A program made the position numbers and the translations under genes. A stretch of 41,441 bases of DNA, from positions 1 through 41,441 of IMG/VR virus record IMGVR_UViG_3300021952_000002; one strand, 5' to 3'. The DNA comes from a virus. Under the pieces are notes generated by a model. It was not told the origin of the DNA and did no database searches. It saw only the letters and a list, made by a program, of their open reading frames with translations. Within the stretch, counting starts at the first letter, position 1, and each line of letters opens with the position of its first letter. Positions 6,581 through 40,061 of the stretch are shown here, in pieces.

Positions 6581-8111
6581 CCCAATTACTGAAACAATCC
6601 TGTTTCCGTATCAGGTTGTGGCTGCTGAGAGGATCGCACAGCAACGTGCGGTTCTCTTGGCAGACCAGCCTGGTCTGGGTAAGACTTTGGAAGTTATCGG
6701 CGGCCTTGAGTTGGCTGGGTTGTTTTCTGAATACAAGGTGACAACTAACATCTTGGTGCTAACTCCCATCGTGAACGCTCGCACCACCTGGATTGATGCC
6801 CTAGAACGCTTTGTAGCGCCTCACTACGCCATCAACATCATTGACCTGTCTGTTGGTACGTCTAAGGCTAAAACACAGCGCCTAGAGGCTGACTGGGTGG
6901 GTGATGGCATCAACATTGTTGTTGCTAACCACAATGCTCTCGACTACTCAAGGAAGGGCTGGCGTGTTGAGTTCCCATCGGTTAGTTGGGATGCGGTTAT
7001 CGTTGATGAATCTCACCTAGTGCTACCTATCGGAGCTAAGCAGACTAACTTCCGTACCGCACTAAACAAGCTGCGGATGTATCACGATGGAGCGATCCGT
7101 ATTGCCATCTCTGGTACGCCTGACCGTGGAAAGTTGGAGAATCGCTTCGGAACCTGGTCTTTCCTTTATCCGAGCATTGTTGGAATGAATCGCTATGCCT
7201 GGCTTGAGGACAACTTTTTTATGGTTGAGCAACGAGTATCGGCTAACCGCACTATCCGTGTTCCTTACACTCTCAAAGATGAACGGCGCTGGCAGATCTT
7301 CAGTAACAAGTGGATGATTCGCCGGACTAAATCTGAGGTGCTGGCTCAGTTGCCTCCGAAGCGTTACATTGACGTTGAGTTGGATTTGCTTCAGGATCAG
7401 CGTGTTGATTACCTGATGGCGCAAATGGAGTTTGAAGAGGCTCTGAGTGAGTCGGAGAGCAACTCAACTTCAGCTGCAATGCTATTTGCCCTGCGCTCAC
7501 GCCAGATTGCTGTATGCCAGTGGCGTGAACAGGATAACCAACTACTGCCTGTTGTCGGTGGTGCATCGATCAAACTGAACTGGTTGCTTGAGTGGCTTGA
7601 TGAACGAGGCTTCATTGTCGCTGATGCAAACGCTGACAACGAGGCAAAGGTTGTGATTGTTAGCCAGTTTTCTCGAGTGCTGCATTGGCTCAAGACCGAG
7701 TTGGCAAACCAGGGTATCGAAGCCCAAGTGCTTGATGGCAAGACTAGCGCCACTAAGCGAACCGAGATTCAAGATCGATTCCAGAACGGCAACCTGCGTA
7801 TCGTCTTGCTCTCTGGCTCGATGGGTGTTGGTATCAACCTTGATAAGGCTGATGACCTGATTATGCTCGATAGCCCTTACGACCCAGACCGGATTGAGCA
7901 GATTGAAGATCGTGTCCACCGAGCTTCAAGCATCCACAACGTAACCATCTGGAACCTGATGGCTAAAAGCACTATCGATGTTTCGATTGCCGAAACCGTG
8001 AGTAAGCGTTACCAAACAACCAGGAAACTGCTTGACGAAGATCGTGGCGTGTCTATTGGTCGTGATGTTCTCAAGCGCATCAAAGCTATAAAGGAAGAAA
8101 CCAATGAGTGA
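6573..8111 (+). CDS. SNF2-family DEAD/DEAH-type helicase (512 aa)
   Basis: ATP-driven DNA translocase of superfamily 2. ATG 6573 overlaps the previous gene; GTG 6564 is an alternative. Motifs in order: LFPYQVVAAERIA (Q-like region, residues 9-21), Walker A ADQPGLGKT (about 30-38), LTPIVNARTTW (motif Ia), Walker B VIVDESH (about 142-148), ISGTPDRG (motif III), then the second RecA domain with VVIVSQFSRVLHWLK, VLDGKTSATKRTEIQDRF, VLLSGSMGVGINLDKAD and QIEDRVHRASS (motif VI, arginine finger). Length and motif spacing fit phage SNF2-like helicases used in replication or recombination. It is followed by several tiny genes that overlap end to start. Confidence 0.9.
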   Translation: MTNPITETILFPYQVVAAERIAQQRAVLLADQPGLGKTLEVIGGLELAGLFSEYKVTTNILVLTPIVNARTTWIDALERFVAPHYAINIIDLSVGTSKAKTQRLEADWVGDGINIVVANHNALDYSRKGWRVEFPSVSWDAVIVDESHLVLPIGAKQTNFRTALNKLRMYHDGAIRIAISGTPDRGKLENRFGTWSFLYPSIVGMNRYAWLEDNFFMVEQRVSANRTIRVPYTLKDERRWQIFSNKWMIRRTKSEVLAQLPPKRYIDVELDLLQDQRVDYLMAQMEFEEALSESESNSTSAAMLFALRSRQIAVCQWREQDNQLLPVVGGASIKLNWLLEWLDERGFIVADANADNEAKVVIVSQFSRVLHWLKTELANQGIEAQVLDGKTSATKRTEIQDRFQNGNLRIVLLSGSMGVGINLDKADDLIMLDSPYDPDRIEQIEDRVHRASSIHNVTIWNLMAKSTIDVSIAETVSKRYQTTRKLLDEDRGVSIGRDVLKRIKAIKEETNE

Positions 8112-18513: not shown

Positions 18514-18951
18514 TTGAGTAAAGCAAAAGAAATCGGCACTCGAGCCGAAACAGCAGTGCGTAACTACCTGCTGTCGCAAGACTATTCCCCTCTTGAAGCC
18601 CATCGCAATGTTCTCAAAGGCTCAGTCGATGAAGGCGATGTCTGGCTTCGTGAATACTTTGGCCTCGTAGTCTTTGAGGTCAAAGGTGGCAACGCTGCCA
18701 AAACCGCATCCCACAACCAGGTTTTGAAGTGGTTTGATGAAGCAACTTTAGAAAAGGAGAACGCTAATGCACGACTTGGATTCCTCGTCACCCAACGAGC
18801 CGGAGTTGGTTATCCCCGAGCTGGGCAATGGTGGGCCTATGCTGACTTGTCTGATCTCATTTGGCTTAGGACTCGGAGTGAGTCTCATCCTCGTGGGACT
18901 ATTGCTCGTATCACTCTCGCTGAGTTAGTAGCCCTTTTCAAGCATGGCTAA
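18514..18951 (+). CDS. PD-(D/E)XK nuclease, Holliday-junction-resolvase-like (145 aa)
   Basis: It probably cleaves branched DNA before packaging. TTG 18514 follows AAGGAGAGAG with fitting distance. The core is GTRAETAVRNYL (helix with Glu, residues 8-19), GSVDEGDVWL with catalytic Asp (about 35-44), and VVFEVKGG with the E-x-K pair (about 51-58). Later come GFLVTQRAGVG and RAGQWWAYADL. Resolvase-like proteins of this type lie directly in front of the large terminase in actinophages, as here, where the genes overlap by 8 bases. First gene of the rightward virion operon. Confidence 0.78.
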   Translation: MSKAKEIGTRAETAVRNYLLSQDYSPLEAHRNVLKGSVDEGDVWLREYFGLVVFEVKGGNAAKTASHNQVLKWFDEATLEKENANARLGFLVTQRAGVGYPRAGQWWAYADLSDLIWLRTRSESHPRGTIARITLAELVALFKHG

Positions 18952-20479
18952 AGAACTCGACCTGAGCGAGCTTCTTCTCCAACTAGGTGAAGGGCTTCAA
19001 GATTCTGCGTCCTCACCAAACCTCTACGCCTACAAGCCGAGCGAGAAGCAGGAACGCTTCCATCGCATGACTAATAAGGCGAGGCTTTACATCGGCGGAA
19101 ACCGTTCAGGTAAATCCCTTGGCTCAACCATTGAGGGCATTTGGTGGGTGACGAAAACTCACCCTTTCCGAGAGTTACCAGAAGGGCCAATCCGAGGTCG
19201 TGTCGTTGCAGTGGACTTCCTCAATGGTGTGGATAAGATTATTCTTCCGCTCTGGAAGCAGTGGCTTCCGAAGCGATACCTAATCAACGGTTCTTGGGAA
19301 GATTCCTATTCGAGAGAGCGTCACGTTCTCACCCTAAATAATGGCTCCTTCGTGGAGTTCATGTCTCAGGATCAAGACCTAGATAAGTTCGCTGGTTCAT
19401 CCAGGCATTTCATCCATTTCGATGAGGAATGCCCTAAGACGATCTGGCAAGAATGTCTCGCACGTCTAGTCGATACCGATGGTGACTGGTGGATGTCTCA
19501 GACACCAGTTGAAGGTATGGAATGGATTTACGAGGATGTTTACCTCCCAGCAAAAGAAGGCACGAAAGACATTGGCATCGTTGAAGCGAGTATGGAAGAT
19601 AACCCTTCCCTCTCTAAAGCTGCCATTGACCGATACATGGAGAGCCTTAGCGAAGAGGAAAGGCTTATCCGTAAGAACGGACAATACATCCATCTTGGCG
19701 GTTCAGTATTCCCTGAGTTCAGCCCCATTACACATTGCATTCCTAGAGGGCAGTTCCGACCCAGTAGCAAGCATCGAATTATTCGAACAATGGATTCGGG
19801 ATACACAAACCCAACAGCCTGGCTCTGGCTTGCCGTTGATGAGGACGGCTCTATTGTCGTATTCCGCGAACACGTCCAAACTAAATGGAACGTGGCTCAA
19901 CACTCTGAGGTCGTCAATCACGTCACGCGCCAGATCCTCAAAGAGTCTGGAGCCGAGCTATACCTCACTACCGGAGATCCGGCTATCAAGCAGACCAAAG
20001 AACATACTGGAACAAGTATCCAGCAGGAGTATCAGAAGCATGGCATCAACATCTATGTAGATTCCATCCCAACTGATCGCCGCATTGGTCTTGAACGTAT
20101 TCGTCAATACTTTGGAACTAACCCCAAAACAGGCAAGCCCTACTTGATGATTACGGATGATTGCCCAACTTTGATTGCGGAACTTCCAAAACTGAAGTGG
20201 AAGAAACACGCATCGCCAAAGATTGCCGAGCAGAAGAATAAACTCGAGGACATCCGCGATAAAGATAACCACTGCTATGATGCACTTAAGTACGCAATGA
20301 CATTCATGGCGGACTTGACCCCTGAAAGTTATTTGCTAAATGAGACGAACGATACATTCCATCGCTCTTTTATTGACGCTTTTGGTTCTCCTAGTCACTC
20401 ATCGAAAGACTATGACGACCAAGATGAATGGGGCGAAAACTGGCGAGGCATGTCCTCAGTAAGAGAGCTAGAAGGATGA
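18944..20479 (+). CDS. terL: terminase large subunit (511 aa)
   Basis: Packaging motor and nuclease. ATPase domain: IGGNRSGKS (Walker A, residues 50-58), AVDFLNGVDKI, FAGSSRHFIHFDEE (Walker B with catalytic Glu, about 148-161), and MSQTPVEG (coupling motif, about 186-193). Nuclease domain: RTMDSGYTNPTAWLWL (first Asp, about 280-295), YLTTGDPAIK (about 346-355), and DKDNHCYDALKYAM (last Asp cluster, about 443-456). Length is typical. It overlaps the next gene by ATGA. No small terminase is adjacent; the best candidate lies on the other strand at 39035. Confidence 0.95.
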   Translation: MAKELDLSELLLQLGEGLQDSASSPNLYAYKPSEKQERFHRMTNKARLYIGGNRSGKSLGSTIEGIWWVTKTHPFRELPEGPIRGRVVAVDFLNGVDKIILPLWKQWLPKRYLINGSWEDSYSRERHVLTLNNGSFVEFMSQDQDLDKFAGSSRHFIHFDEECPKTIWQECLARLVDTDGDWWMSQTPVEGMEWIYEDVYLPAKEGTKDIGIVEASMEDNPSLSKAAIDRYMESLSEEERLIRKNGQYIHLGGSVFPEFSPITHCIPRGQFRPSSKHRIIRTMDSGYTNPTAWLWLAVDEDGSIVVFREHVQTKWNVAQHSEVVNHVTRQILKESGAELYLTTGDPAIKQTKEHTGTSIQQEYQKHGINIYVDSIPTDRRIGLERIRQYFGTNPKTGKPYLMITDDCPTLIAELPKLKWKKHASPKIAEQKNKLEDIRDKDNHCYDALKYAMTFMADLTPESYLLNETNDTFHRSFIDAFGSPSHSSKDYDDQDEWGENWRGMSSVRELEG

Positions 20480-20982
20480 GACACTTCAACTACTTCCCCA
20501 ACGGCGGCCCTTTCCCAGGCATCTGTGCGCTTTGTGGCATTGATCGTGACCTGTGGCAAATGGGCTTCGAACACTTCCGAGGTGGAGACGCAATGGCTTG
20601 CAGCCGTTGTATTGGCGAACTAGCCGAGAACATCGGCTGGCTTCCAAAGGCTCCACTTGAGGAAGCAATCTCCCACCGCGATAAGCGCATCGCAGAACTT
20701 GAAGAGCAGCTTGCTCTAGTACCAACTTTTACCGAGGAGCTAATAAATGGAGTTCGTAGTAGCCTTACTGATTTTGTCTTTGCTATTTCTAACGGCGGTC
20801 ACGCTAATCGCAATGAACCTATTCAAAACGCTGACGGAAGTATCGAACCAGATGTCGAAGGTGACGAGCCAGCAGATGTCAGCCCTAAAGCACTCGGCAA
20901 ACCTTCTGGTATCGAAGGATCCGATGACATTTCAGCAGATTCAGTCCGTAACCGACCAGGTCGCCCCCGCAAAATCAACTAA
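20476..20982 (+). CDS. zinc-ribbon-like protein, overlapping reading frame (168 aa)
   Basis: ATG 20476 overlaps the terminase stop. The N-terminal half has CALCG and CSRC (about residues 17-41), a four-Cys zinc site, then a coiled-coil (EAISHRDKRIAELEEQLALV). The C-terminal half is acidic, disordered and ends in NRPGRPRKIN, an AT-hook-like basic tail. From 20747 to its end it shares DNA with the membrane-protein gene in another frame, yet both frames look protein-like. Small zinc proteins behind the terminase are known in actinophages. Function unknown, perhaps packaging-related. Confidence 0.7.
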   Translation: MRHFNYFPNGGPFPGICALCGIDRDLWQMGFEHFRGGDAMACSRCIGELAENIGWLPKAPLEEAISHRDKRIAELEEQLALVPTFTEELINGVRSSLTDFVFAISNGGHANRNEPIQNADGSIEPDVEGDEPADVSPKALGKPSGIEGSDDISADSVRNRPGRPRKIN

Positions 20983-21088
20983 CGAATACCAGGGTGTATA
21001 CCTCACTGGTGATGAGTTAGAATTGCTTGAAAAGCGAGAGCAAGAGATTGACGCTCTCTGGAAGCAAGCAACTGACGATTTGGACTAG
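20747..21088 (+). CDS. membrane-anchored phage protein, overlapping frame (113 aa)
   Basis: ATG 20747 has a strong ribosome-binding site (GAGGAG, about 8 bases upstream). The N-terminus is a clear membrane helix (FVVALLILSLLFLTAVTLIA, about residues 3-22), followed by a helical soluble part with KDPMTFQQIQSVTDQVAP. The first 236 bases overlap the zinc-ribbon gene in a different frame (+1). It lies between terminase and portal, a place where short membrane proteins of this style occur in actinophages. Function unknown. Confidence 0.7.
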   Translation: MEFVVALLILSLLFLTAVTLIAMNLFKTLTEVSNQMSKVTSQQMSALKHSANLLVSKDPMTFQQIQSVTDQVAPAKSTNEYQGVYLTGDELELLEKREQEIDALWKQATDDLD

Positions 21089-21091
21089 CAG

Positions 21092-23164
21092 ATGGTAGAT
21101 ACCGTTCCTCCAGCAATGGGCATTCCTATGCCACCTGTTTCTGACCTTGCACCTGATGCGCTAGTCAATCAGTTCAAAAAGATGCAGGAGTCCAAGAACC
21201 TAGTCGCTTGGATTCAGTCTGAATACGGCAAGTGCAAGACCGCTCGCAAGCTCGATGAGCAGGAATGGTATCTCCAACTCGCCTTCTACAACGGTCATCA
21301 GTATTCCTCGTGGGCTACCCGAGGCAATGCTCAGGTTCTCGCTGAAGAGCCAAACCGTGAAGGTATCCCTCGTGTGACGGTAAACCGCATTGAGCCAATC
21401 ATTCGTACCGAGATCGCTAAGACTACTTCCGGTCACACCAGTGCAACAGTTCTCCCTGCATCAAATGATGACGATGACCTAATGGCAGCTCAAGCTGCTG
21501 AGCAGATTTGGGAGTCTATCTATGATCGACTCAACTTCCAGACAGACATTCTTCAAAAGGGTGAGTTCTGGCGAGCCACTACTGGTAACGGTTTCATCAA
21601 GACATTCTGGAACCCATCCGTAAAGGTTCAATCCAGCAATCCTTTTATGCCTTCAACTGGTGACGTAGACCAGGAAGTTGTTACCCCATTCCACCTCTTC
21701 GTTCCTGACCTACAGGAAGAGGACATTGAAAAACAGCCTTACCTGTTCAACGTCTACACAAAGAGTCCTCAATGGGTGAAGTCCACCTTTGGCTCTGTTC
21801 TGCCAAAAGATTTCAACCCAACTAAGATTTCCGCATCTGAGATTATGAGCGCTGCTCTAATGGATGCCAAGGGTGGCAATGACGCTAGGCAGGATGCTGT
21901 TCTGGTTATCGAGATGTGGGCTAAGCCAAACGGTTGCCCAATGCTTCCTAACGGCGGTCTTGTCACCATTGTCGATAATGAGATTGTTCAGCTCGCTGAA
22001 AACGGTATTCCTTACCGCCACGGACAGTATCCTTTCGCACATCTTCAGGGCATTGCAACTGGAAAGTTCTACCGCCGTTCAGTAATCAAGAGCCTCATTC
22101 CAATCCAGCGTGAATACAACCGCCTGCGTTCGCAGATTATTCAGGCTAAAAACATGATGGCTAAGCCTCAGATGATGTACACCGAGGGTTCGGTTGATCC
22201 ACGCAAGATTACTGCTCGTGCAGGCATCTGGATCCCTGTTCGCCCTGGTTTCGACAAGCCTCAGCCAGTTCCAATCCAGCCATTACCTAACTACGTCATC
22301 AACGAAGTTCAGCAACTACAGGCTGACTTTGAGGACATTTCTGGTCAGCACCAAGTCTCGCGTGGTGAATCCGGTGGTGTAACCGCAGCTACTGCAATCA
22401 ACTACTTGCAAGAGCGTGACGATGCCTACTTGACCGCAGTGTTCTCTTCGATTGAAGCTGCGGTTGAGAAGTGCGCTCGCCAAGCTTTGACTCTATTTGT
22501 TCAGTATGTAGACCAGCCACGAATCATAAAGATTACTGGTGACGATGGTTCGTTTGACGCAATGGTTGTATCTGGTGCAGATGTTGCCTCTGGAACTGAC
22601 ATCCGAGTTGAGTCTGGTTCGGCTCTACCAACTAGCAAGTCGGCACGTCAGGCTCTGATTACTGACTGGATGAAGATGGGCTTCATCTCTCCACAAGACG
22701 GTCTTGGCATCCTGGACATGGGTATGCTCCGCAAGTACTACAACGTCATCAAGATGGATGAAAACCAGGCTTCTCGTGAGAACCTGATGATGAAGCGCCT
22801 CGATGACCAGAGCGTACAGCAACACCAGATGCAATGGGAGCAGGGTGCAGCTGCTGGGCAGGTTGATAAGACTATGCCTGGGCAGACTGATGCAAATGGT
22901 CAGCCTATCGGTCTCGCTATCCCACCAGTTGTTCCAGTTCACGACTACGACAACCACGCAGTTCACATCGAAGTTCACAATCGCTTCCGCAAGTCGCAGG
23001 CGTTCGATAACCTGTCTGATTCCGTCAAGGCAGAGTTCCAGAAGCACGTTTCGATGCACGAAACTGCACTTCAGGCTAAACTTGCTCAGCAGATGATGCT
23101 AAGCCAAGGCGCACCACAGGATGCGCAACAGGGTGGGCAACCAGTTCCGCCTCCAGCACAGTAA
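21092..23164 (+). CDS. portal protein, P22 type (690 aa)
   Basis: It forms the dodecameric DNA entry ring of the head. Typical parts: an N-terminal helix with YGKCKTARKLDEQEWYLQLAF, PRVTVNRIEPIIRTEIAK (about residues 91-108), TGNGFIKTFWNP (about 167-178), the VVTPFHLFVPD clip region, YPFAHLQGIATGKFYRRS, then IQREYNRLRSQIIQAKNMM (stem/wing), and a long Gln-rich C-terminal tail. Length and order match P22-like portals of podoviruses rather than siphovirus portals (about 450). It follows the membrane-protein gene with 3 bases between and precedes the scaffold. Confidence 0.88.
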   Translation: MVDTVPPAMGIPMPPVSDLAPDALVNQFKKMQESKNLVAWIQSEYGKCKTARKLDEQEWYLQLAFYNGHQYSSWATRGNAQVLAEEPNREGIPRVTVNRIEPIIRTEIAKTTSGHTSATVLPASNDDDDLMAAQAAEQIWESIYDRLNFQTDILQKGEFWRATTGNGFIKTFWNPSVKVQSSNPFMPSTGDVDQEVVTPFHLFVPDLQEEDIEKQPYLFNVYTKSPQWVKSTFGSVLPKDFNPTKISASEIMSAALMDAKGGNDARQDAVLVIEMWAKPNGCPMLPNGGLVTIVDNEIVQLAENGIPYRHGQYPFAHLQGIATGKFYRRSVIKSLIPIQREYNRLRSQIIQAKNMMAKPQMMYTEGSVDPRKITARAGIWIPVRPGFDKPQPVPIQPLPNYVINEVQQLQADFEDISGQHQVSRGESGGVTAATAINYLQERDDAYLTAVFSSIEAAVEKCARQALTLFVQYVDQPRIIKITGDDGSFDAMVVSGADVASGTDIRVESGSALPTSKSARQALITDWMKMGFISPQDGLGILDMGMLRKYYNVIKMDENQASRENLMMKRLDDQSVQQHQMQWEQGAAAGQVDKTMPGQTDANGQPIGLAIPPVVPVHDYDNHAVHIEVHNRFRKSQAFDNLSDSVKAEFQKHVSMHETALQAKLAQQMMLSQGAPQDAQQGGQPVPPPAQ

Positions 23165-24121: not shown

Positions 24122-25318
24122 ATGGCAGGTCAGGGCATTCTGACTTTCGCCTCGGATGCTCTGAAGCTCGTCTATGGCGACCTTCACGAGCAGCTCCGAG
24201 ACAAGACCCCAGCTCTAGATTACATCCAGGCAAGCGCAGCACACCTTACCCAGAACGGTAAGGAAGCTCGTTTCGACACCCACGTTGGTCGTAACGTAGG
24301 TATTGGTGCGCGTGACATTCGCGAAACCCTTCCTTCGGCTGGCGCACAGAAGTACAAGCAGGCAAGCCTCTACCTCAAGAACCTTTACGGTGCTATCGAG
24401 GTTGATGGTCAGCTCTTCGAGCAGGCTGCTGACAACTACAACAGCTTCATCAACGTTGTAGACAACGAAATCAAGGGCCTCAAGAAGGATCTTGCTCGTG
24501 ACTTCAACCGCCAGATTTACGGTGACGGCACTGGTACCATCGCTTCGGTTGCTACCACTGCAACTGGAACCCAGATCGTAATGGACAGCACTACCTGGGC
24601 TGACGTAGACATGACTGTATCGTTCATCCGTGCAGGTTCTGTTGTTGGCTCGCAGGTAACTATCGTTTCTATCAACGAAACTACCAAGACCATTACTTTC
24701 TCGGCTTCGGTTGCTGCCGTTGCTGGTGACAAGATGGTTCGTAGCTCGAACGGTTCGACCAACTACAACAAGGAAATCACTGGTCTGGGCGCAATCGTTG
24801 CATCCAGCGGTTCCCTCCACGGCATCGACCCAGCCACTACTCCAGTATGGGCTTCGACTGTTACTACCCTTGGAACCCCTCCAACTCCTGCAACTCTTAC
24901 TGAACTGAACCTGATCAACCTCGTTCAGAAGGTAGACAAGCAGGGTGGCGATGTAGACGTATTCCTGGCTTCGCCTGGTGTTTACAACGCTTACTGGAAC
25001 CTCCTTCAGGGCATGCGCCAGTTCACCAACCAGTCTGAACTGACTGGTGGACAGCGTTCGTTCTCGTTCGAGGCACTGGGTAAGCCAATCAAGTTCATCT
25101 CGGACTACGCTGCTCCAAGCAACACCCTGTACGCACTTACCTCTTCGGAACTCGTTCTGAACCGCAAGCGCGACTGGGCTTGGATGGATCGCGATGGTTC
25201 GATGTGGAACCGTGTTGGTGAGACCGATGCCTACCAGGCACGTCTGTTCCAGTACTGCGAACTCGGCACTTACCGCCGTAACGCACACGCTAAGCTCAGC
25301 AACATCGCTGAACTCTAA
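24122..25318 (+). CDS. major capsid protein (398 aa)
   Basis: Forms the icosahedral shell, presumably HK97 fold. N-terminal helix-rich arm (ASDALKLVYGDLHEQL), E-loop-like middle (RETLPSAGAQKYKQASLYLK), and a P-domain with the spine helix (EQAADNYNSFINVVDNEIKG). An extra domain rich in Thr/Ser follows (about residues 136-215), then DVFLASPGVYNAYWNLLQGM and an end with RLFQYCELGTYRRNAHAKLS. Highly biased to a small codon set and flanked by strong terminators on both sides, as expected for a very abundant protein. TTAGGAGAG precedes ATG 24122. An antisense frame of 357 codons is only a shadow of this bias. Confidence 0.88.
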   Translation: MAGQGILTFASDALKLVYGDLHEQLRDKTPALDYIQASAAHLTQNGKEARFDTHVGRNVGIGARDIRETLPSAGAQKYKQASLYLKNLYGAIEVDGQLFEQAADNYNSFINVVDNEIKGLKKDLARDFNRQIYGDGTGTIASVATTATGTQIVMDSTTWADVDMTVSFIRAGSVVGSQVTIVSINETTKTITFSASVAAVAGDKMVRSSNGSTNYNKEITGLGAIVASSGSLHGIDPATTPVWASTVTTLGTPPTPATLTELNLINLVQKVDKQGGDVDVFLASPGVYNAYWNLLQGMRQFTNQSELTGGQRSFSFEALGKPIKFISDYAAPSNTLYALTSSELVLNRKRDWAWMDRDGSMWNRVGETDAYQARLFQYCELGTYRRNAHAKLSNIAEL

Positions 25319-29860: not shown

Positions 29861-29889
29861 ACTGATTACATCTAACTGAGGATGTGAAC

Positions 29890-32800
29890 TTGGCTACTCC
29901 AACACCAAATCCACTTGACGGCATTGGCTCCATGTCTGAAATGGCTAAAAAGCCATCAGCAACAAAGCCTCAGCCAAACGCAAAATCTTCTTCACCAGCA
30001 CCTAGTGGTGGAGACCTTAGTGGCGTTGGCTCAATGTCGGATTTTGCAAATGGTGTCACTCCAGCGCAACCAACTCAGCCCACTTCGCCACAGGCAGGTA
30101 GCCCTCGCCGTGAAGCTAACCGTTCCGGTCAGAAAACCACTTTTGCTGACGTTCGCTACGGCACACTCTCTGCGCCTATTGCGCTTCTAAACGCTGCCGA
30201 AACTCCCCTCTACTACCTAGAGGATACGATTTATCAGGCAACTAAGGATCCGCAGAAAAACTCTGACTACCAGGCTTACCAAAAGAAGGTTGCAGACCTT
30301 CAGGCTAAGGGTGACGGCGTAGGAGCCGCAGCCGCTTACTACCCATTCCTTTTCAGCCAAATGGCTAAATCTTGGAACAACGCAACTGCTTGGACTAAAG
30401 GTCAAGACGTAAAGCACACTGGTGGTGCTATCGCTAAAAACCTTGGAATGATCAACACCTCCAAGGATGCCGAATCTGGTAAAGACTGGGTTGGCAAGAC
30501 TCAGAACGTTCTCGCTGGACTTGTCTTTGACATTGGCTTAGACCCAATGACTTATGTTCCAGGCCCTGACGTTATCAAGGGTCTTGAAATCCTAACTAAG
30601 GGCGGTATTGGACTTGTCAAAGGTGCGGTAAAGGGTGCCGCTGGCCAGGTTCCAGAATGGGCCGCAAAAAAACTTCTCTCCCCTGAAGAGCTTGCTAAAG
30701 CTGCTGAAACTGCTCAGAAGGTTACTGCACCTGGCAAGAACATCATCAAGCCTCGTAACCTGCGCCCAGCAGGTGAGGCTAGTGACGCTGCAACTAAGCA
30801 GGCTGACTACCTAGCGAAACTGAATGAGACTTCAGTGAACATGGTCAAGTTGCCTGATGCAGTTGATCGTACGATTGGCGAGAAGGCTTTCGACTCCGCC
30901 CTATCTGGCGTAGACCTAGGTCTGAGGGCGGCTAAAGCGACCCTGCTTAGCGCAAGGGCAAATCACTTCCTTGAGAAGTATGCCAAGGATGCCGCCTACT
31001 CTGCTAGGTATGCCAAGAAGGCAGCCGCAAAGTCTGCCAAGGACTACATCTACGATGTTGGGCAGTCTGCTGTTCGAGACGCTACTAACCAGGCTTCAAA
31101 TGACCTTCAGCAAGCTACTGACAACGTTGTAGAGCCACCAAAGCCTAGCGAAGCAAGCATCGCTCAGCCTAAGACCGCAAAGCGTTCGCGCGCTATTATG
31201 CCCGAGCAGGCTCCAACTAAGTACGAAGATGCGATGCAACGAGTTGGGCCGCAGGACATCAAGGTTGTAAAGGATGTTCTAAAGAAGCTCGACTCAGTTG
31301 CCAAAAAAGCAGTTGGCGTAAAGCCAAACTCTGCCAAGTTGAGCGAAACTGTTTCACGCTTTATCGAGGGTATTGACTCTCGAAGCCACGCCGTATTCAA
31401 GGCTATGGATGAGCAAACCCAGAGCGCCTTGAAGTCTGCCATCTCTCTGAAAGAGATGAACCCAACTATGCTTTGGAAAGACTCCCTAGCAGGCGCTAGG
31501 GCAGGTACTGAAAAGGCTCGAATCAAGAAGGCTTTCGTTGCCATCTATGGCAACAAGGTGGCTCAGTTCACTACTGGTCGAGACACTATCGGTCACTACC
31601 TGAACTCCAACATTGACACTCCATTCAACAAGTTGCCTAACGCCGACAAACTTCACCTCATCAAGGGTCTTATGGAGTTCACCAACCCTAGCGGTAAGGG
31701 CAACCTAGAAGAACTCTCCAAGCTGGTTCCAGACAAGGCTGTACTTGACGAACTTGTAAAGGCTGGCGCACTAGATGGTGGCGGTCGAAACGAAGCAGTT
31801 CGATCAATCCTTGGCAAGATGACCGGAACTGCTGGCGACAACCTTGAAGCCAAGTACAAGAACGCTGATGAACTTATTGCAGGTGTTCGTGCCGGAGATT
31901 CCATCCCAGCAGATGTTTTGATGAAGCTAGTCAAGGCCCTGAACCCTGACAATGCCGTAATCAAGAAGTTGGAAGCATCGGCTGAAAAGCCAACCACCGA
32001 GATGCTCTCGGCAATCATCCGCAACGAACCTGGTGTAGTAAATACTCTTGCTTCGATGCGTAAGCGCCTCGCCCTTGCCGACAGCAAGATGTTTATGAAG
32101 AGTACTGGACTCTCAAGTTCGGACACTATCGCAGCTTACCTAGATCGCCGTACGCTGGGTGCTGAAGAGATTACTCCGGTAATCCACGCAGGCACTCGAG
32201 AAGTTGCAGCCAAGTCTGTTTCTCGAATGAGAACTCAAGACGTGATGACCGCTACCGAAGTGATCCGTGAGACCTTTGGCAAGCGTTTCGACATGGCTGA
32301 AGGTGGTGTCGCTCGCATCTCTGACCTTGGTGACTACGCCAAGTTGCAGACTGGCGAAGCCTATAAGGGTGGCTGGGCGATTCTTGAGGATCAGGCTAAC
32401 CAATCGTTCCAGTCGATCATCTCCGCAAAGTTGCTTGGAATCACTCGCTTCAGGGCTAATAAGGCAGCTAGTGGGGCAATGGAGGCTGGTGATGTTGGTG
32501 CAGTTGAGACAGCCTCGACTCGAATCGCAAACTTCACCTTGCGAATGGCTGAAGTCCGTGATGTTCTTCTTGCAACTACTGGCACTCGTATGTTTGTGCA
32601 AAAAGAACGTGCGCAAGTTGGTAAGGACATTGCTGAGAACAAGTTCTCGGTATTCATTGACCTTGGCGACATTGTGCAGGTTTTCGCCTCCACCCCAGAG
32701 GGCGCTCAGGTTATTGAGCGAGCAATGTTCCAGGATGCTAAGCGAGACAGTCTTGACACCCTGAGTATCCTCAAGGGAACAATGCATGTTCTCGAGGCAA

Positions 32801-35800
32801 GGCAGAACGGTTCGGCTTACGACCAAGAAGCACTGCTAAAGGTGACTGCTTTCAAGGCTAAGGAAGAGCCACTATCTAAGGCTTTCAAGGCTCAAAAGGA
32901 AAGCATCGCCGCTGAGTTCCTACACCACCTGATTACTCAGGCCGCTCCAAAGCTTGAAGAAATCCATTTGAACCGATCAATGGCTGCGGTTGAGGACTAC
33001 ATTGGTCACTCGCTCGACATTAGCCACCAGGTTGTTTCAACTCTGCGTGATGCCTGGGTTGTTGCAGTTCGTGAGGGTCGTGCCACAACTGAAGAGCGCT
33101 TCCGCCAACTCAGGGACTTGTTCAACCGCTTCGCTTACATCACCGACATCGTTCGACAGCAAGATGGAGCAGTTGCTGAGGCTGTAATGCGAGCGGCTTC
33201 GATGCTTTTCGTCAAGGGAGGAAATCTCTCTAAGGCAGAGTTTACCAAGAGCATCGATAGCAGCTTCCTAGATGACCTCAGTGAACTTTACCGACTGATG
33301 CCACAGTTCGGCACTAAAGACCACGCTGACATGACTGAGATGCTCAATGAATACTCTCGAATGGATAACCCAGCAATGGGCGCACCAATCGGTCGTGAGC
33401 GCCTGCCTAAGCCTTCTGCCGATGCCGTAAACAAGGCTTCAGTTGCCTATTCCAAGGCTAAGGATGCCTTTATTGCTCACGCTAAGGCTGGTCTGAAACT
33501 AGACTCCCCAGAGGCTTACAAGGTGTGGCGTACCGAGGCTAAAGACATCGCTAAACAGCTCGACAAGGCTCGAAAAGGCGCTTACCACGCTTGGCTACCA
33601 ATCGAACACTACAGCAACCGTCTGCGCCGTTTTGTGCCTGTTGAAGCCTATGACCACGAAGCCGAACAGGCTTGGGCTAAGGCTCACCCACCACGCCTGA
33701 TTGGCGATGTTCTGGCTCAGGTTGAGAGGGATGCCGTTGATGCAAAGCCAGTAAAGATGGAGGGCGCTGGTAACGGTGGTCAAAAAGCTGCTGCAAGGGT
33801 AGCCGCTAATGCTGCTGTAAAGGATCACAACGCAAAGCTAAGTGAAGCCCTGATTGAGGACACCTCTGCTGATGTTTACGAAAACATCGGAGCCTACGAT
33901 GCGCTAGGTCTTGAACCACAAGACACCGCAATGCGTCTAGAAGAAGATGCCCAGTTTGAGCAGTACAACAAGCAGATCCCAAAGGCTGACCTGTACGTTT
34001 ACTCGCCAAAAAACATGAAGGCAGAAAACCTCTCTGTAGTTGAGAAACTTCGCCAGAAGATGTCCGCTACTGGAGGAGATCTTGCTGGACTAACCCAAAA
34101 TGCAGAGTCTATGATCCACTCGCTTCGTAGCGACCTGGCTCGAGTTCTAAACCACGCACACAGCGCAAGCAAAGATTTTGCAACTGGCGATGATTGGGGA
34201 ACCGCCCTTGCTCGAGCAATCAGCAAGGAGGGCGTAGACGAACTTGCTACCCCAGAAATCCAGGCTCTGCAAAAGACCGTTGCAAGCGTTATGGATTCAA
34301 TCCTGCACGAAGCCGAGATTGTCGGGGTTAGCCCAGAGGCGCTTGCATCAAAGCTGAAGCACTATGGTCTTTTTGAGAAGGATGGTTTCTCGGCAAGCGG
34401 AGACCTGAAAGAACTCATCAGCAACCTGCCATTTATGAATCGCCCTGCCGGAATCATTGACGGTAGCGCAGAAGCAATCAAGTGGGCTGAGCGAGCTGCC
34501 GAGTTTGAAAAGTCCACTCTGCGCCCTGTAGACGTAATCATCAAGATTGGTAGTGCCGTACACCACGTCAAGACCATTCAAGCCTTAGCAGGCAACCTGA
34601 CGGCTCAGGCAGGGCATCTAGCCTACGGTCTGACCGAAGAGAAGGCTATCTCCTACGGCTGGGTAAAGATGAAGTCATCTATCCCAAGTGAGATTATGGA
34701 CTCAATCCCAGAGGGAACCCTGTTCCACCCTGAGATTGCAAAGCAGGTTGCCGCGCTTGACCGCAACTGGACTGCCCTGCAAAAGGGTCAGGACTACGGC
34801 AAGATGACTAAGTTTGTTCACGCAATGATGCGCCAAATCAGTTGGTGGAAGTTTACCCAGACAACCCTCAACCCTCGACACCACATCACCAACCTTATTG
34901 GTGACACAATGTTTGAGTTGATGCGAGGCAATTTCAACCCGATGAGCTGGCATCTAGCCGGACTTGTCGCTAAGGAAGCCGCACACTCTCTAGTCAAAAC
35001 TGAATGGATGACTAAAGACATCTCCCCAATGATGGATCGTTTCCTGGCACACGAAACTGATCTCGCATCCCTCGGAAAGAAGTATTCTCGCTTCACTAAG
35101 GGTGGCAAGAAGGTTGTGCCAGTAACCGTCAATGGCAAAACCCAGCACATGACTATTGCTGAAGTTGTAGCCAAAATGCAACAGCGAAACATCCTGACAA
35201 ACAGTTACTACAACGATGAAGTATCTGCAATGTATGAGAACCTAGTTCTCGATGTCACTTCATCTGGTGCAAACCGTCAGTTGGTGAAGGCTCAGACCCT
35301 GCGTATGCGAATGGGTATCGAAAAGACCCTGAAGCCTTTCGGTGACTTTACAGCAATCTACTCGAACTACCCACGAGCTGCTGGCGCAATCGATGTAATG
35401 CTTTCAAAAGAATGGTCGAGTGAAGAAGCGATGTGGACTGCGGTTGCTCGTGAAGTTCACCTCTACCACCCAAGCATCCAGTCGCTAACTGCTGGTGAGC
35501 GCAAGTACGGCCGTCTATTTGTTGGCTACTACACCTGGCTTCGAGTAGCACACAATGCCCTGCTTGACCTAGCAATCAACCACAGCCTAAACGCTGTCAC
35601 GATTCCGCTAAAGGTAGCAAGCAACATTCGACAGTCGAGTGGTCTAAACCAGGGAAGCCTAATGGATCCTTGGGGTAGTGAGAACTCTAGCTTTGTTCCA
35701 CAAAACATGCGAGGAAGCCTCTACGGTGCGCTAGTGAACACTCCAGAGTTCGGCCCGCTCGGCATCAAGGGCTTCTCGCCAGCTGCGGACATTATGGAGA

Positions 35801-36237
35801 ACTGGCAGTTCTACTACGACCCAGCAGCTAATGGTGATCTGAACCAGATGCTAGGTGAGCAGGGTCAGCCTCTGCAAAACCTAGTAGGTGGCAACCTAAA
35901 CCCAATCGCCAAGCAGATTAGTCAAGAACTATTCGCACAGGACTTCCAGACTGGCAAGAAGTACACTGACCGCACCCCAGCAGCGGTTTGGGATCGCTTC
36001 CTGCAAACCCTCGGCCCGACTCAGGCACTTGAAGGTGCTGGACTCTACACGCCACTGGACAAGCAAGCACCAGGCAAGGGCTACACCAAGCAACAGCAGG
36101 ATTTGAAAACCCTCAAATACTTCACTGGTGGCAAGCAGTTTATGGCTGTAGACCCACAGCTAGCCAAGGTTGCTAGACTTGAAGATACCGCAAGGTTGAA
36201 GATGTTCCTCAAGACGTTACCAAAGGATCAGAAGTGA
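29890..36237 (+). CDS. giant internal virion protein (2,115 aa)
   Basis: By far the largest gene (15% of the genome). TTG 29890 is preferred because GAGGA lies 7 bases upstream; GTG 29884 is too close. The protein starts Pro/Ser-rich (PLDGIGSMSEMAKK repeated around residues 8 and 45). It continues with TFADVRYGTLSAPIALLNAA, a long Ala/Lys-rich helical body, and FTQTTLNPRHHITNLIGDTM (about 1650-1670). A conserved-looking C-terminal part has RKYGRLFVGYYTWLRVAHNA (about 1875) and PQNMRGSLYGALVNTPEFG. No RNA polymerase, transglycosylase or kinase motif was seen. By position and size it matches large ejected proteins of podoviruses, and the NP..HI.N motif resembles some polyvalent-protein domains. 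Function unknown. Confidence 0.85.
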   Translation: MATPTPNPLDGIGSMSEMAKKPSATKPQPNAKSSSPAPSGGDLSGVGSMSDFANGVTPAQPTQPTSPQAGSPRREANRSGQKTTFADVRYGTLSAPIALLNAAETPLYYLEDTIYQATKDPQKNSDYQAYQKKVADLQAKGDGVGAAAAYYPFLFSQMAKSWNNATAWTKGQDVKHTGGAIAKNLGMINTSKDAESGKDWVGKTQNVLAGLVFDIGLDPMTYVPGPDVIKGLEILTKGGIGLVKGAVKGAAGQVPEWAAKKLLSPEELAKAAETAQKVTAPGKNIIKPRNLRPAGEASDAATKQADYLAKLNETSVNMVKLPDAVDRTIGEKAFDSALSGVDLGLRAAKATLLSARANHFLEKYAKDAAYSARYAKKAAAKSAKDYIYDVGQSAVRDATNQASNDLQQATDNVVEPPKPSEASIAQPKTAKRSRAIMPEQAPTKYEDAMQRVGPQDIKVVKDVLKKLDSVAKKAVGVKPNSAKLSETVSRFIEGIDSRSHAVFKAMDEQTQSALKSAISLKEMNPTMLWKDSLAGARAGTEKARIKKAFVAIYGNKVAQFTTGRDTIGHYLNSNIDTPFNKLPNADKLHLIKGLMEFTNPSGKGNLEELSKLVPDKAVLDELVKAGALDGGGRNEAVRSILGKMTGTAGDNLEAKYKNADELIAGVRAGDSIPADVLMKLVKALNPDNAVIKKLEASAEKPTTEMLSAIIRNEPGVVNTLASMRKRLALADSKMFMKSTGLSSSDTIAAYLDRRTLGAEEITPVIHAGTREVAAKSVSRMRTQDVMTATEVIRETFGKRFDMAEGGVARISDLGDYAKLQTGEAYKGGWAILEDQANQSFQSIISAKLLGITRFRANKAASGAMEAGDVGAVETASTRIANFTLRMAEVRDVLLATTGTRMFVQKERAQVGKDIAENKFSVFIDLGDIVQVFASTPEGAQVIERAMFQDAKRDSLDTLSILKGTMHVLEARQNGSAYDQEALLKVTAFKAKEEPLSKAFKAQKESIAAEFLHHLITQAAPKLEEIHLNRSMAAVEDYIGHSLDISHQVVSTLRDAWVVAVREGRATTEERFRQLRDLFNRFAYITDIVRQQDGAVAEAVMRAASMLFVKGGNLSKAEFTKSIDSSFLDDLSELYRLMPQFGTKDHADMTEMLNEYSRMDNPAMGAPIGRERLPKPSADAVNKASVAYSKAKDAFIAHAKAGLKLDSPEAYKVWRTEAKDIAKQLDKARKGAYHAWLPIEHYSNRLRRFVPVEAYDHEAEQAWAKAHPPRLIGDVLAQVERDAVDAKPVKMEGAGNGGQKAAARVAANAAVKDHNAKLSEALIEDTSADVYENIGAYDALGLEPQDTAMRLEEDAQFEQYNKQIPKADLYVYSPKNMKAENLSVVEKLRQKMSATGGDLAGLTQNAESMIHSLRSDLARVLNHAHSASKDFATGDDWGTALARAISKEGVDELATPEIQALQKTVASVMDSILHEAEIVGVSPEALASKLKHYGLFEKDGFSASGDLKELISNLPFMNRPAGIIDGSAEAIKWAERAAEFEKSTLRPVDVIIKIGSAVHHVKTIQALAGNLTAQAGHLAYGLTEEKAISYGWVKMKSSIPSEIMDSIPEGTLFHPEIAKQVAALDRNWTALQKGQDYGKMTKFVHAMMRQISWWKFTQTTLNPRHHITNLIGDTMFELMRGNFNPMSWHLAGLVAKEAAHSLVKTEWMTKDISPMMDRFLAHETDLASLGKKYSRFTKGGKKVVPVTVNGKTQHMTIAEVVAKMQQRNILTNSYYNDEVSAMYENLVLDVTSSGANRQLVKAQTLRMRMGIEKTLKPFGDFTAIYSNYPRAAGAIDVMLSKEWSSEEAMWTAVAREVHLYHPSIQSLTAGERKYGRLFVGYYTWLRVAHNALLDLAINHSLNAVTIPLKVASNIRQSSGLNQGSLMDPWGSENSSFVPQNMRGSLYGALVNTPEFGPLGIKGFSPAADIMENWQFYYDPAANGDLNQMLGEQGQPLQNLVGGNLNPIAKQISQELFAQDFQTGKKYTDRTPAAVWDRFLQTLGPTQALEGAGLYTPLDKQAPGKGYTKQQQDLKTLKYFTGGKQFMAVDPQLAKVARLEDTARLKMFLKTLPKDQK

Positions 36238-36881: not shown

Positions 36882-37058
36882 TTACTTTGCCTTCGGGGTG
36901 TTGCGGTGAGCCATTAGAGCAACCGCAATGGTGATGCCAGAGGCAACCAGACCCAGGATTGCCTGACCTAGCTTGTCGCTGACGTAGCCAGTGGCTACAA
37001 GGATTGGAACAACAGCAGCAGTGAGCTGGTAAACGATGGAACGCTTCTCAGGAGTCAT
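36882..37058 (-). CDS. holin (58 aa)
   Basis: Forms membrane lesions timing host lysis. The ATG (37058-37056) overlaps the endolysin stop (TAATG). The protein reads MTPEKRSIVYQ, then two hydrophobic segments (LTAAVVPILVATGYV and AILGLVASGITIAVALMAH, about residues 12-26 and 33-51) and a basic tail RNTPKAK. This is the pattern of r1t-like holins in actinophages. Its place beside the M23 endolysin supports the call. Confidence 0.75.
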   Translation of the reverse strand: MTPEKRSIVYQLTAAVVPILVATGYVSDKLGQAILGLVASGITIAVALMAHRNTPKAK

Positions 37059-37477
37059 TACTTGCCTTCTTTCTTGATGAGTTTAGTGAGAACCTTGATT
37101 GGATCGTAAACCTTACCGCTGAAAACACCCTTAGCAAGCTTGCTGAAGGTGAAATGCAGGTGAGGGCCAGTAGATGCCGAGCCAGTGCTACCAACCAAGC
37201 CGATAGGTTCTCCAGCCTTGACGATAGTGCCGACTTTCAAGCCTGGGTGAAGCAGGTGGCAGTAACCAAAGTAGGCTAGGCGACCAACCTTGACCACAAC
37301 AACATTTCCAAGAACATCAGACCACTGGCTGATAACAACCTTGCCAGCAGTGGCACTAGGAACCGCTGTCCCCTGCCTAACGGCGAAGTCAGTGCCTCGG
37401 TGAGGGTTTGGGTGGTTAGCGTCAGTCGAGCCGAACTCGCACGAAATAAACCTAGTAGGGAATGGGAACTGCGTCAT
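37058..37477 (-). CDS. M23 peptidase endolysin (139 aa)
   Basis: It cuts peptide cross-links of peptidoglycan. Zinc ligands are seen: H and D in PHRGTDFAV (about residues 26-34) and the HLHF motif in GSASTGPHLHFTF (about 98-110), with a further His in CHLLHPGLKVGTIVKAGEPI. It is just the catalytic domain without a cell-wall-binding domain, which is short for an endolysin. It could also be a virion-bound lysin, but it sits between an XhlA-like gene and the holin. It overlaps the next gene by 1 base. Confidence 0.87.
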   Translation of the reverse strand: MTQFPFPTRFISCEFGSTDANHPNPHRGTDFAVRQGTAVPSATAGKVVISQWSDVLGNVVVVKVGRLAYFGYCHLLHPGLKVGTIVKAGEPIGLVGSTGSASTGPHLHFTFSKLAKGVFSGKVYDPIKVLTKLIKKEGK

Positions 37478-39034: not shown

Positions 39035-39769
39035 CTATTCGTCAATAGTGATAATGTTCGCCTCAACCTCTATTGTAGTCGGTTCAGGCAAAGCAGCGAA
39101 ATGGGATTGCCCAGTGGCAAGCGCAATAAGTTCACGCGCAATGTTTCGCTTAGTCGGGCCGTCAGTGACATGTCTTAGGATGATGTCCTGGACTTGGAGC
39201 AGGATTGCAGGCAAGTCAATCTGCTGTTTAGCATTTGGATCAAAGCGACCAGTGAGCTGATTCAAGAACTGAATCGCCTTCATGTCACCCTGCTGAACCA
39301 GGTCACCCAGCGCCTTATCAGCCATTGGGATGTAAGCCTTCAAGTTGTCGGCAGACTTAGCCGACATCGCCCCAGCAAACTCCTTCTGGCGCATCCAGCC
39401 ATCCAACTCATTAGTGGTGATTTTGAGTTGTTTAGCAATGGTCTGAATCGGTTTCAGGTTTACCGGACTCAGGTACGCCTGAAGAAGCATCTCCTGACGC
39501 AGAGTGAGATTAGGGTTCTTAGTGGTACGGATGCCGCGATCCTCAAGAGATCTCTGGAACTTAGTAGAGGCCCATACAAGTTCGATGTCAGCACGATCAA
39601 GAGTTTCATCTTGATCCAAAATAACCTGCGTCTCCAAAAAGAGTCCCTGACGATCCGCTGCAATAGCAGCTGCGAGGACACGTTCATAGAGCGCCTGTTC
39701 TCTGGTCTTGCGTTCGGAAGCGAGTCTGGACTCGAACTTGGAAACATCGTACTTAGCCGTTTCGCTCAA
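39035..39769 (-). CDS. terS: probable terminase small subunit (244 aa)
   Basis: It binds phage DNA and guides packaging. TTG 39769 is chosen because GGGAG lies about 10 bases upstream; TTG 39778 is too close to it. After a helical N-terminus there is a HTH region (LTLRQEMLLQAYLSPVNLKP, IQTIAKQLKITTNELDGWMR, about residues 88-128), followed by helices (MADKALGDLVQQGDMKAIQF, LNQLTGRFDP). This order (HTH, then AL..LV..GD..A...L...TG..) is typical of small terminases. It is more than 18 kb from the large subunit and on the other strand, which is unusual. The alternative is a regulator. Confidence 0.55.
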   Translation of the reverse strand: MSETAKYDVSKFESRLASERKTREQALYERVLAAAIAADRQGLFLETQVILDQDETLDRADIELVWASTKFQRSLEDRGIRTTKNPNLTLRQEMLLQAYLSPVNLKPIQTIAKQLKITTNELDGWMRQKEFAGAMSAKSADNLKAYIPMADKALGDLVQQGDMKAIQFLNQLTGRFDPNAKQQIDLPAILLQVQDIILRHVTDGPTKRNIARELIALATGQSHFAALPEPTTIEVEANIITIDE

Positions 39770-40061
39770 TGCGGTCAATCTCCCTATTGATGTACCAGAT
39801 AGCCTTCTTCAAGTCCTGGACATTGCTACTGCCATCCTTCAAACCAGCTCGCCATAAGTACTTGATGGCATTACCGATTGTGAAGTTGCGATGCTCAGTA
39901 ATCTGAATGCACTCCACGCCAGAAGGATCTGAGACATAGTGCTTTGGATGATTGATTACGTCATGGGGGTAGTGAGGCTCAGTCTTATCCTTTGTGGTGG
40001 GAACCAAGCCCTGCTCAGCCCAAGACTCACGTTGCTTCTGAATGTGGTTATGCAAGCTCAC
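39753..40061 (-). CDS. DUF3310 protein (102 aa)
   Basis: GTG 40061 overlaps the previous gene (GTGA). The DUF3310 pattern is clear: HPKHYVSDPSGVECIQITEH, then FTIGNAIKYLWRAGLKDG, and DLKKAIWYINREIDRIER (about residues 37-99). Such small phage proteins are often listed beside nucleotide kinases; biochemical role unproven. It overlaps the small terminase gene by about 17 bases. Confidence 0.88.
   Translation of the reverse strand: MSLHNHIQKQRESWAEQGLVPTTKDKTEPHYPHDVINHPKHYVSDPSGVECIQITEHRNFTIGNAIKYLWRAGLKDGSSNVQDLKKAIWYINREIDRIERNG

Follow-up and report, generated by a model that had tools for sequence, protein, structure and literature searches.

Does a stretch of 236 nt between the terminase and portal genes of this virus encode two proteins at once and, if so, what might such a pair do there? 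We analyzed the whole 41,441-nt stretch of DNA (hereafter, the window), in which the gene order is terminase, A, B, portal, and ORFs A and B overlap in different frames exactly at the positions that the initial annotation had given. In a survey of 968 prokaryotic overlaps exceeding 60 bp, none of the same-strand and divergent pairs proved to be real (PMC2478687). The features of the locus are as follows.

18944..20479, + strand: terminase large subunit (terL); Pfam Terminase_6N E=5.6e-8, PHROG terminase matches, 43% identity to the Arthrobacter phage Jasmine terminase
20476..20982, + strand: ORF A, zinc-finger-like protein of 168 aa; ATG at 20476 to TAA at 20982
20734..20739, + strand: Shine-Dalgarno-like GAGGAG for B, read from the sequence within A codons; relatives likewise keep a site ahead of B
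20747..21088, + strand: ORF B, single-TM protein of 113 aa; ATG at 20747 to TAG at 21088
20747..20982, + strand: dual-coding overlap of A and B, 236 nt including the A stop; B is read in the +1 frame relative to A
20750..20797, + strand: segment with purifying selection on both proteins; end of the long helix of A, TM helix of B
20753..20809, + strand: B transmembrane segment, residues 3–21, by hydropathy
20912..20938, + strand: conserved B motif SKDPMTFQQ, residues 56–64, from alignments
21092..23164, + strand: portal protein; Pfam P22_portal E=2.6e-27, phrog_156 E=1.3e-62; starts 3 nt past the B stop

In this arrangement the second codon position of A is the first of B, and the third positions of A are the second positions of B. 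The terL stop and the A start codon share the tetranucleotide ATGA, and translation of A is likely coupled to that of the terminase; an alternative A start is present at 20428, and near relatives conserve the start at 20476 instead. The strong ribosome-binding site and clear membrane helix that had been claimed for B were borne out, with GAGGAG placed 7 nt before the ATG and a Kyte-Doolittle score of 2.91 for the helix.

Homologous loci were collected from both sides of the overlap. A single-sequence search with B returned 23 loci and profile searches added more; a motif screen combined with frame reading gave 61 distinct B homologues besides the window, all of them starting inside an open A-family ORF and in an identical +1 relation to it. 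Three further loci, outside the motif pattern and found by eye, possess the same overlap. In a search seeded with A, every distinct locus carried an overlapping B-type frame; nine of these loci were new, four with an altered B motif (L120–L123). The total of 73 homologous loci (61, 3 and 9) includes no exception to the overlap or to the relative frame; at one contig-end match (L042), the overlap is not assessable. Overlap length ranges from 110 to 329 nt with a median of 203 nt among the 53 loci at which the B start is well placed, and is 95 nt in Microbacterium phage Shocker, which was read separately. Wherever the flank was read, B sits directly before the portal gene. A sequencing indel does not explain an overlap that recurs in 73 loci with B proteins that form at least 24 clusters at the 50% identity level, and both frames, rather than one of them, are conserved across relatives. 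The location between terminase and portal had been taken as one of usually low variability; the location stands, but the genes there show no unusual degree of conservation, with 15–30% identity of A and B to their distant relatives. The starts of B have a better ribosome-site match than other ATGs do, a difference inflated by the fact that B starts in distant loci were partly picked by ribosome-site strength.

Direct tblastn searches of a phage collection with window A, window B and the B protein of locus L024 gave no match. The B profile, run against bacterial and archaeal genomes, detected no relative and hence gave no prophage context. The metagenomic record ctEqG8, in which A is unannotated, has an overlapping frame without membrane helix and without motif; it is thus a partial case and is kept outside the 73. 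The group as a whole comprises widespread short-tailed viruses (podoviruses) whose known members infect actinobacteria; we infer the hosts of the metagenomic members from these isolates. Two side observations concern the relatives. Record IMGVR_UViG_3300021952_000008 carries an A/B pair at both contig ends (L013 and L015), their overlaps ~96% identical, and is possibly a composite or redundant assembly. Some distant relatives possess an extra small gene between terminase and A (L022 2113-2652, L023 2012-2368, L024 2204-2689, and gp12 of Jasmine), in some cases with a GGPYLDD-like motif; this gene is missing from the window.

Among isolated phages, the window terminase shares 43% identity with the Jasmine terminase, 41% with that of Cellulosimicrobium phage DS1 and 37% with that of Shocker, and reading the three records established that the B frame is present in the sequence of each. 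Nothing is annotated at B in Jasmine, between gp13 and the portal (B start at record position 7005), nor in the Casserole and Nellie records, and in all eight Jasmine-group records B is absent among the features listed under the match. B is not annotated in the DS1 record either. In Shocker, the annotated start of gp19 lies just past the end of A, so that the annotated protein is left without its membrane helix. With B missing or trimmed, these public records illustrate what is lost when such overlaps are not trusted. A literature search, with subscription journals mostly outside its coverage, found no report of this gene pair.

Conservation of the frames was next resolved along the overlap by a frame-aware substitution count, a simple counting method in which sites are classed by their effect in both frames, applied to 15 independent (non-overlapping) sequence pairs. 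B is under purifying selection throughout, with an omega of 0.23 over the whole overlap (bootstrap 0.15–0.34) and of 0.20 in the first 48 nt past its start codon. For A, omega is 0.16 (0.03–0.40) in these 48 nt and 0.82 (0.50–1.31), near neutral, in the rest of the overlap; Fisher tests for A constraint gave p = 1e-6 in the first zone and 0.23 in the second. The B synonymous rate is ~4-fold lower in the first 48 nt than further on. For the A result in the first zone, constraint at the RNA level alone would be insufficient, since changes that alter both proteins are rarer than changes that alter B only. The suggestion that the overlap limits both genes thus holds for the first ~48 nt, with both proteins constrained; beyond, A is merely kept open.

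That the A frame is kept open at all was apparent from synonymous codon shuffling of one frame and counting of stops in the other. In totals that count related loci separately, and so overstate independence while leaving the direction unaffected, shuffling of B codons led to an expectation of 117–160 stops in the A frame across 55 loci and shuffling of A codons to 119 in the B frame; none was observed in either. Two controls behaved otherwise: past the A stop, the A frame held 262 stops where 244 were expected, and in the third frame, which is unused, there were 549 where 368 were expected. The absence of stops in the A frame shows that the A tail is kept open despite sequence drift.

Taken together, both frames are open and homologous in divergent relatives and both are under purifying selection, A by virtue of the first 48 nt and of stop avoidance. 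The double coding is real and old, and we put a probability of about 0.85 on A and B being genuine, conserved same-strand overlapping genes, with translation of both inferred from these sequence patterns. The alternative in which B is the only real gene of the overlap, A effectively ending near the B start and its open tail being a by-product, draws on the near neutrality of A past the first 48 nt (omega 0.82) and on tail motifs such as GSDD(I/V)PA that are derivable as a shadow of the B KDPMTFQ codons; the complete lack of stops where 117–160 are expected, together with the strong constraint on the first 16 A codons of the overlap, makes it very improbable. Fusion of A and B into one product by programmed frameshifting, as in tail assembly chaperones, would suit the consistent +1 relation of the frames, but the ribosome site and the start codon that B possesses are conserved among relatives, and this reading is the least credible that we considered.

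With two genes as the preferred reading, we turned to the proteins. A carries a zinc-finger-like CxxC...CxxC motif (Cys 17, 20, 42 and 45), and its AlphaFold2 model (mean pLDDT 74) comprises a small zinc-finger-like domain, a helix spanning residues 58–105, and a low-confidence tail from ~111, mostly below pLDDT 50, that is predicted from the model to be disordered. The change in constraint near A residue 107 falls between the end of the helix (105) and the start of the disorder (~111). Maximal hydropathy of A is 0.71, with no TM segment and no N-terminal signal. Family and fold searches gave no informative match for A: against BFVD structures there was a single match at E<=0.001, to an unnamed protein, and against the PDB the N-terminal domain returned weak rows, topped by the ClpX zinc-binding domain (2ds5, Z 3.7, rmsd 2.8, 38 residues). 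The CxxC spacing of that ClpX N-terminal domain is similar to that of A, whereas A does not possess the AAA+ domain of ClpX; profile comparison of the two gave 46% probability, and 4% with a second profile, with an approximate ClpX sequence as query.

Several features of A vary across the family. The basic RPGRPRKIN tail that the initial annotation had pointed to is present in the window but is not a family feature; a (R/K)PGRPRKI C-terminus occurs only in the window and its nearest relatives (L001 and L031). Eight A proteins (L026, L044, L055, L058, L076, L083, L084 and L091) do not have the zinc cysteines and keep the surrounding pattern and the B overlap. In distant loci (e.g. L021, L066, L081 and L092), the C-terminal part of A contains the GSDD(I/V)PA motif that B codons can account for; short hydrophobic ends such as FDFGL also recur in distant A proteins.

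B possesses one strong TM segment, residues 3–21. Positive charges follow this segment in 56 of 58 B homologues, which by the positive-inside rule orients B N-out/C-in; in the two that depart from this pattern (L049 and L051), the start was probably chosen wrongly. The predicted structure has helices at residues 2–55, including the TM segment, at 59–71 over the conserved family motif [ST]KDP[ML]xFQ, and at 88–112, from a model with a pTM of 0.38 in which the helices alone were used. B is predicted to be a single-helix membrane anchor, N-out/C-in, with a coiled coil and an acidic C-terminus. Family searches and a BFVD structure search yielded no functional match for B.

As to which frame came first, in 41 of 43 loci codon usage in the overlap lies closer to that of the genome when read in frame A than when read in frame B; by simulation, the codon-usage value of A is about that of an unadapted frame, and B is clearly unadapted. 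These data weakly favor B as the younger frame. Because A and B have the same distribution, presence or absence of either frame does not bear on relative age.

A model for the pair can be outlined. A would be a small cytosolic protein consisting of a zinc-finger-like domain and a long helix; translation of B would start inside A, in the +1 frame, at its own ribosome-binding site. The N-terminal helix of B would anchor in the membrane, leaving the coiled coil, the [ST]KDP[ML]xFQ helix and the acidic end in the cytoplasm. The coding conflict would be eased as only the end of the A helix faces the B membrane helix; the remainder of the A overlap is a disordered tail that could accommodate any requirement of B provided that its frame remains open.

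What the two proteins might do is suggested by gene order and B topology, the two observations on which the proposal is built. With A and B placed between terminase and portal, a part in head assembly or packaging is indicated, and A and B may, tentatively, act together there, with B holding the portal or a packaging intermediate at the membrane. The closest functional parallel is gp40 of phage T4, which is required for the membrane-bound portal initiator and helps it to form (PMC9958956). Building a portal initiator at the membrane is the role proposed here as well; the analogy is one of role only, and neither sequence nor fold gives evidence of kinship with gp40. A broader and more doubtful extension is that actinobacterial podoviruses have in common a system devoted to head assembly or packaging on the membrane side, composed of zinc-finger-like adaptor A and membrane anchor B, in which B was overprinted on the A tail and locked in the overlap lineage-wide.

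Podoviruses need proteins to cross the envelope, and B could instead be a virion or injected protein that enters the host membrane during DNA entry. Its TM helix and its place in the structural module agree with such a role, which we consider unlikely; family and fold searches detected no similarity of B to known ejection proteins.

A lysis protein, whether a holin or one of the single-gene lysis type, is a somewhat poorer candidate still. B is small, has a single TM segment and is encoded in an overlap, and E of phiX174, a membrane protein overprinted on another gene, is the textbook precedent (PMC8227390). In phiX174, a T in the third codon position of D is the second position of an E codon, which results in the leucine-rich membrane helix of E (PMC8227390). 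A and B are alike in that each third position of A in the overlap serves as a second position of B, and in that the overlapping part of B holds the membrane helix; they differ in that B begins in A but extends past its end, and B shows no sign of a lysis role. An endolysin-like peptidase gene is present in the window (37058-37477, − strand) and, directly downstream of it, a 58-aa ORF with hydrophobic stretches (36882-37058, − strand) that is likely the holin; with this pair elsewhere in the window, a lysis role of B becomes less likely. B itself (20747-21088) is not part of an endolysin-linked lysis cassette; it adjoins the portal gene, and its conserved part would be cytoplasmic in the predicted N-out/C-in topology.

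Lambda Rz/Rz1 is another long same-strand overlap that involves a membrane protein, as does that of A and B. Unlike Rz/Rz1, the A/B pair is flanked by terminase and portal, outside any lysis cassette, and A is not predicted to be membrane-bound, so that the pair has neither the location nor the two membrane-associated partners of spanins, an inner-membrane protein and a lipoprotein. Spanin families were absent from the scan hits.

Overlapping genes are already known as a kind, and this pair is another case, in which a long overlap on one strand is retained by all the members examined of a broad phage family. Since cultured phages carry it, it is a natural setting in which to test how proteins that share their DNA evolve, and B suggests that a membrane protein has been missed in the head module of actinobacterial podoviruses.

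Three other features of the window were recorded in passing. A protein of 2117 aa (29884-36237, + strand) had no Pfam match at E<=0.01. A weak terminase small subunit match (phrog_24579, E=2.2e-4) lies at 39035-39778 on the − strand, opposite to and far from the large subunit. A 357-aa open frame (24215-25288, − strand) runs antisense to a 398-aa ORF (24122-25318) and is probably an effect of codon bias.
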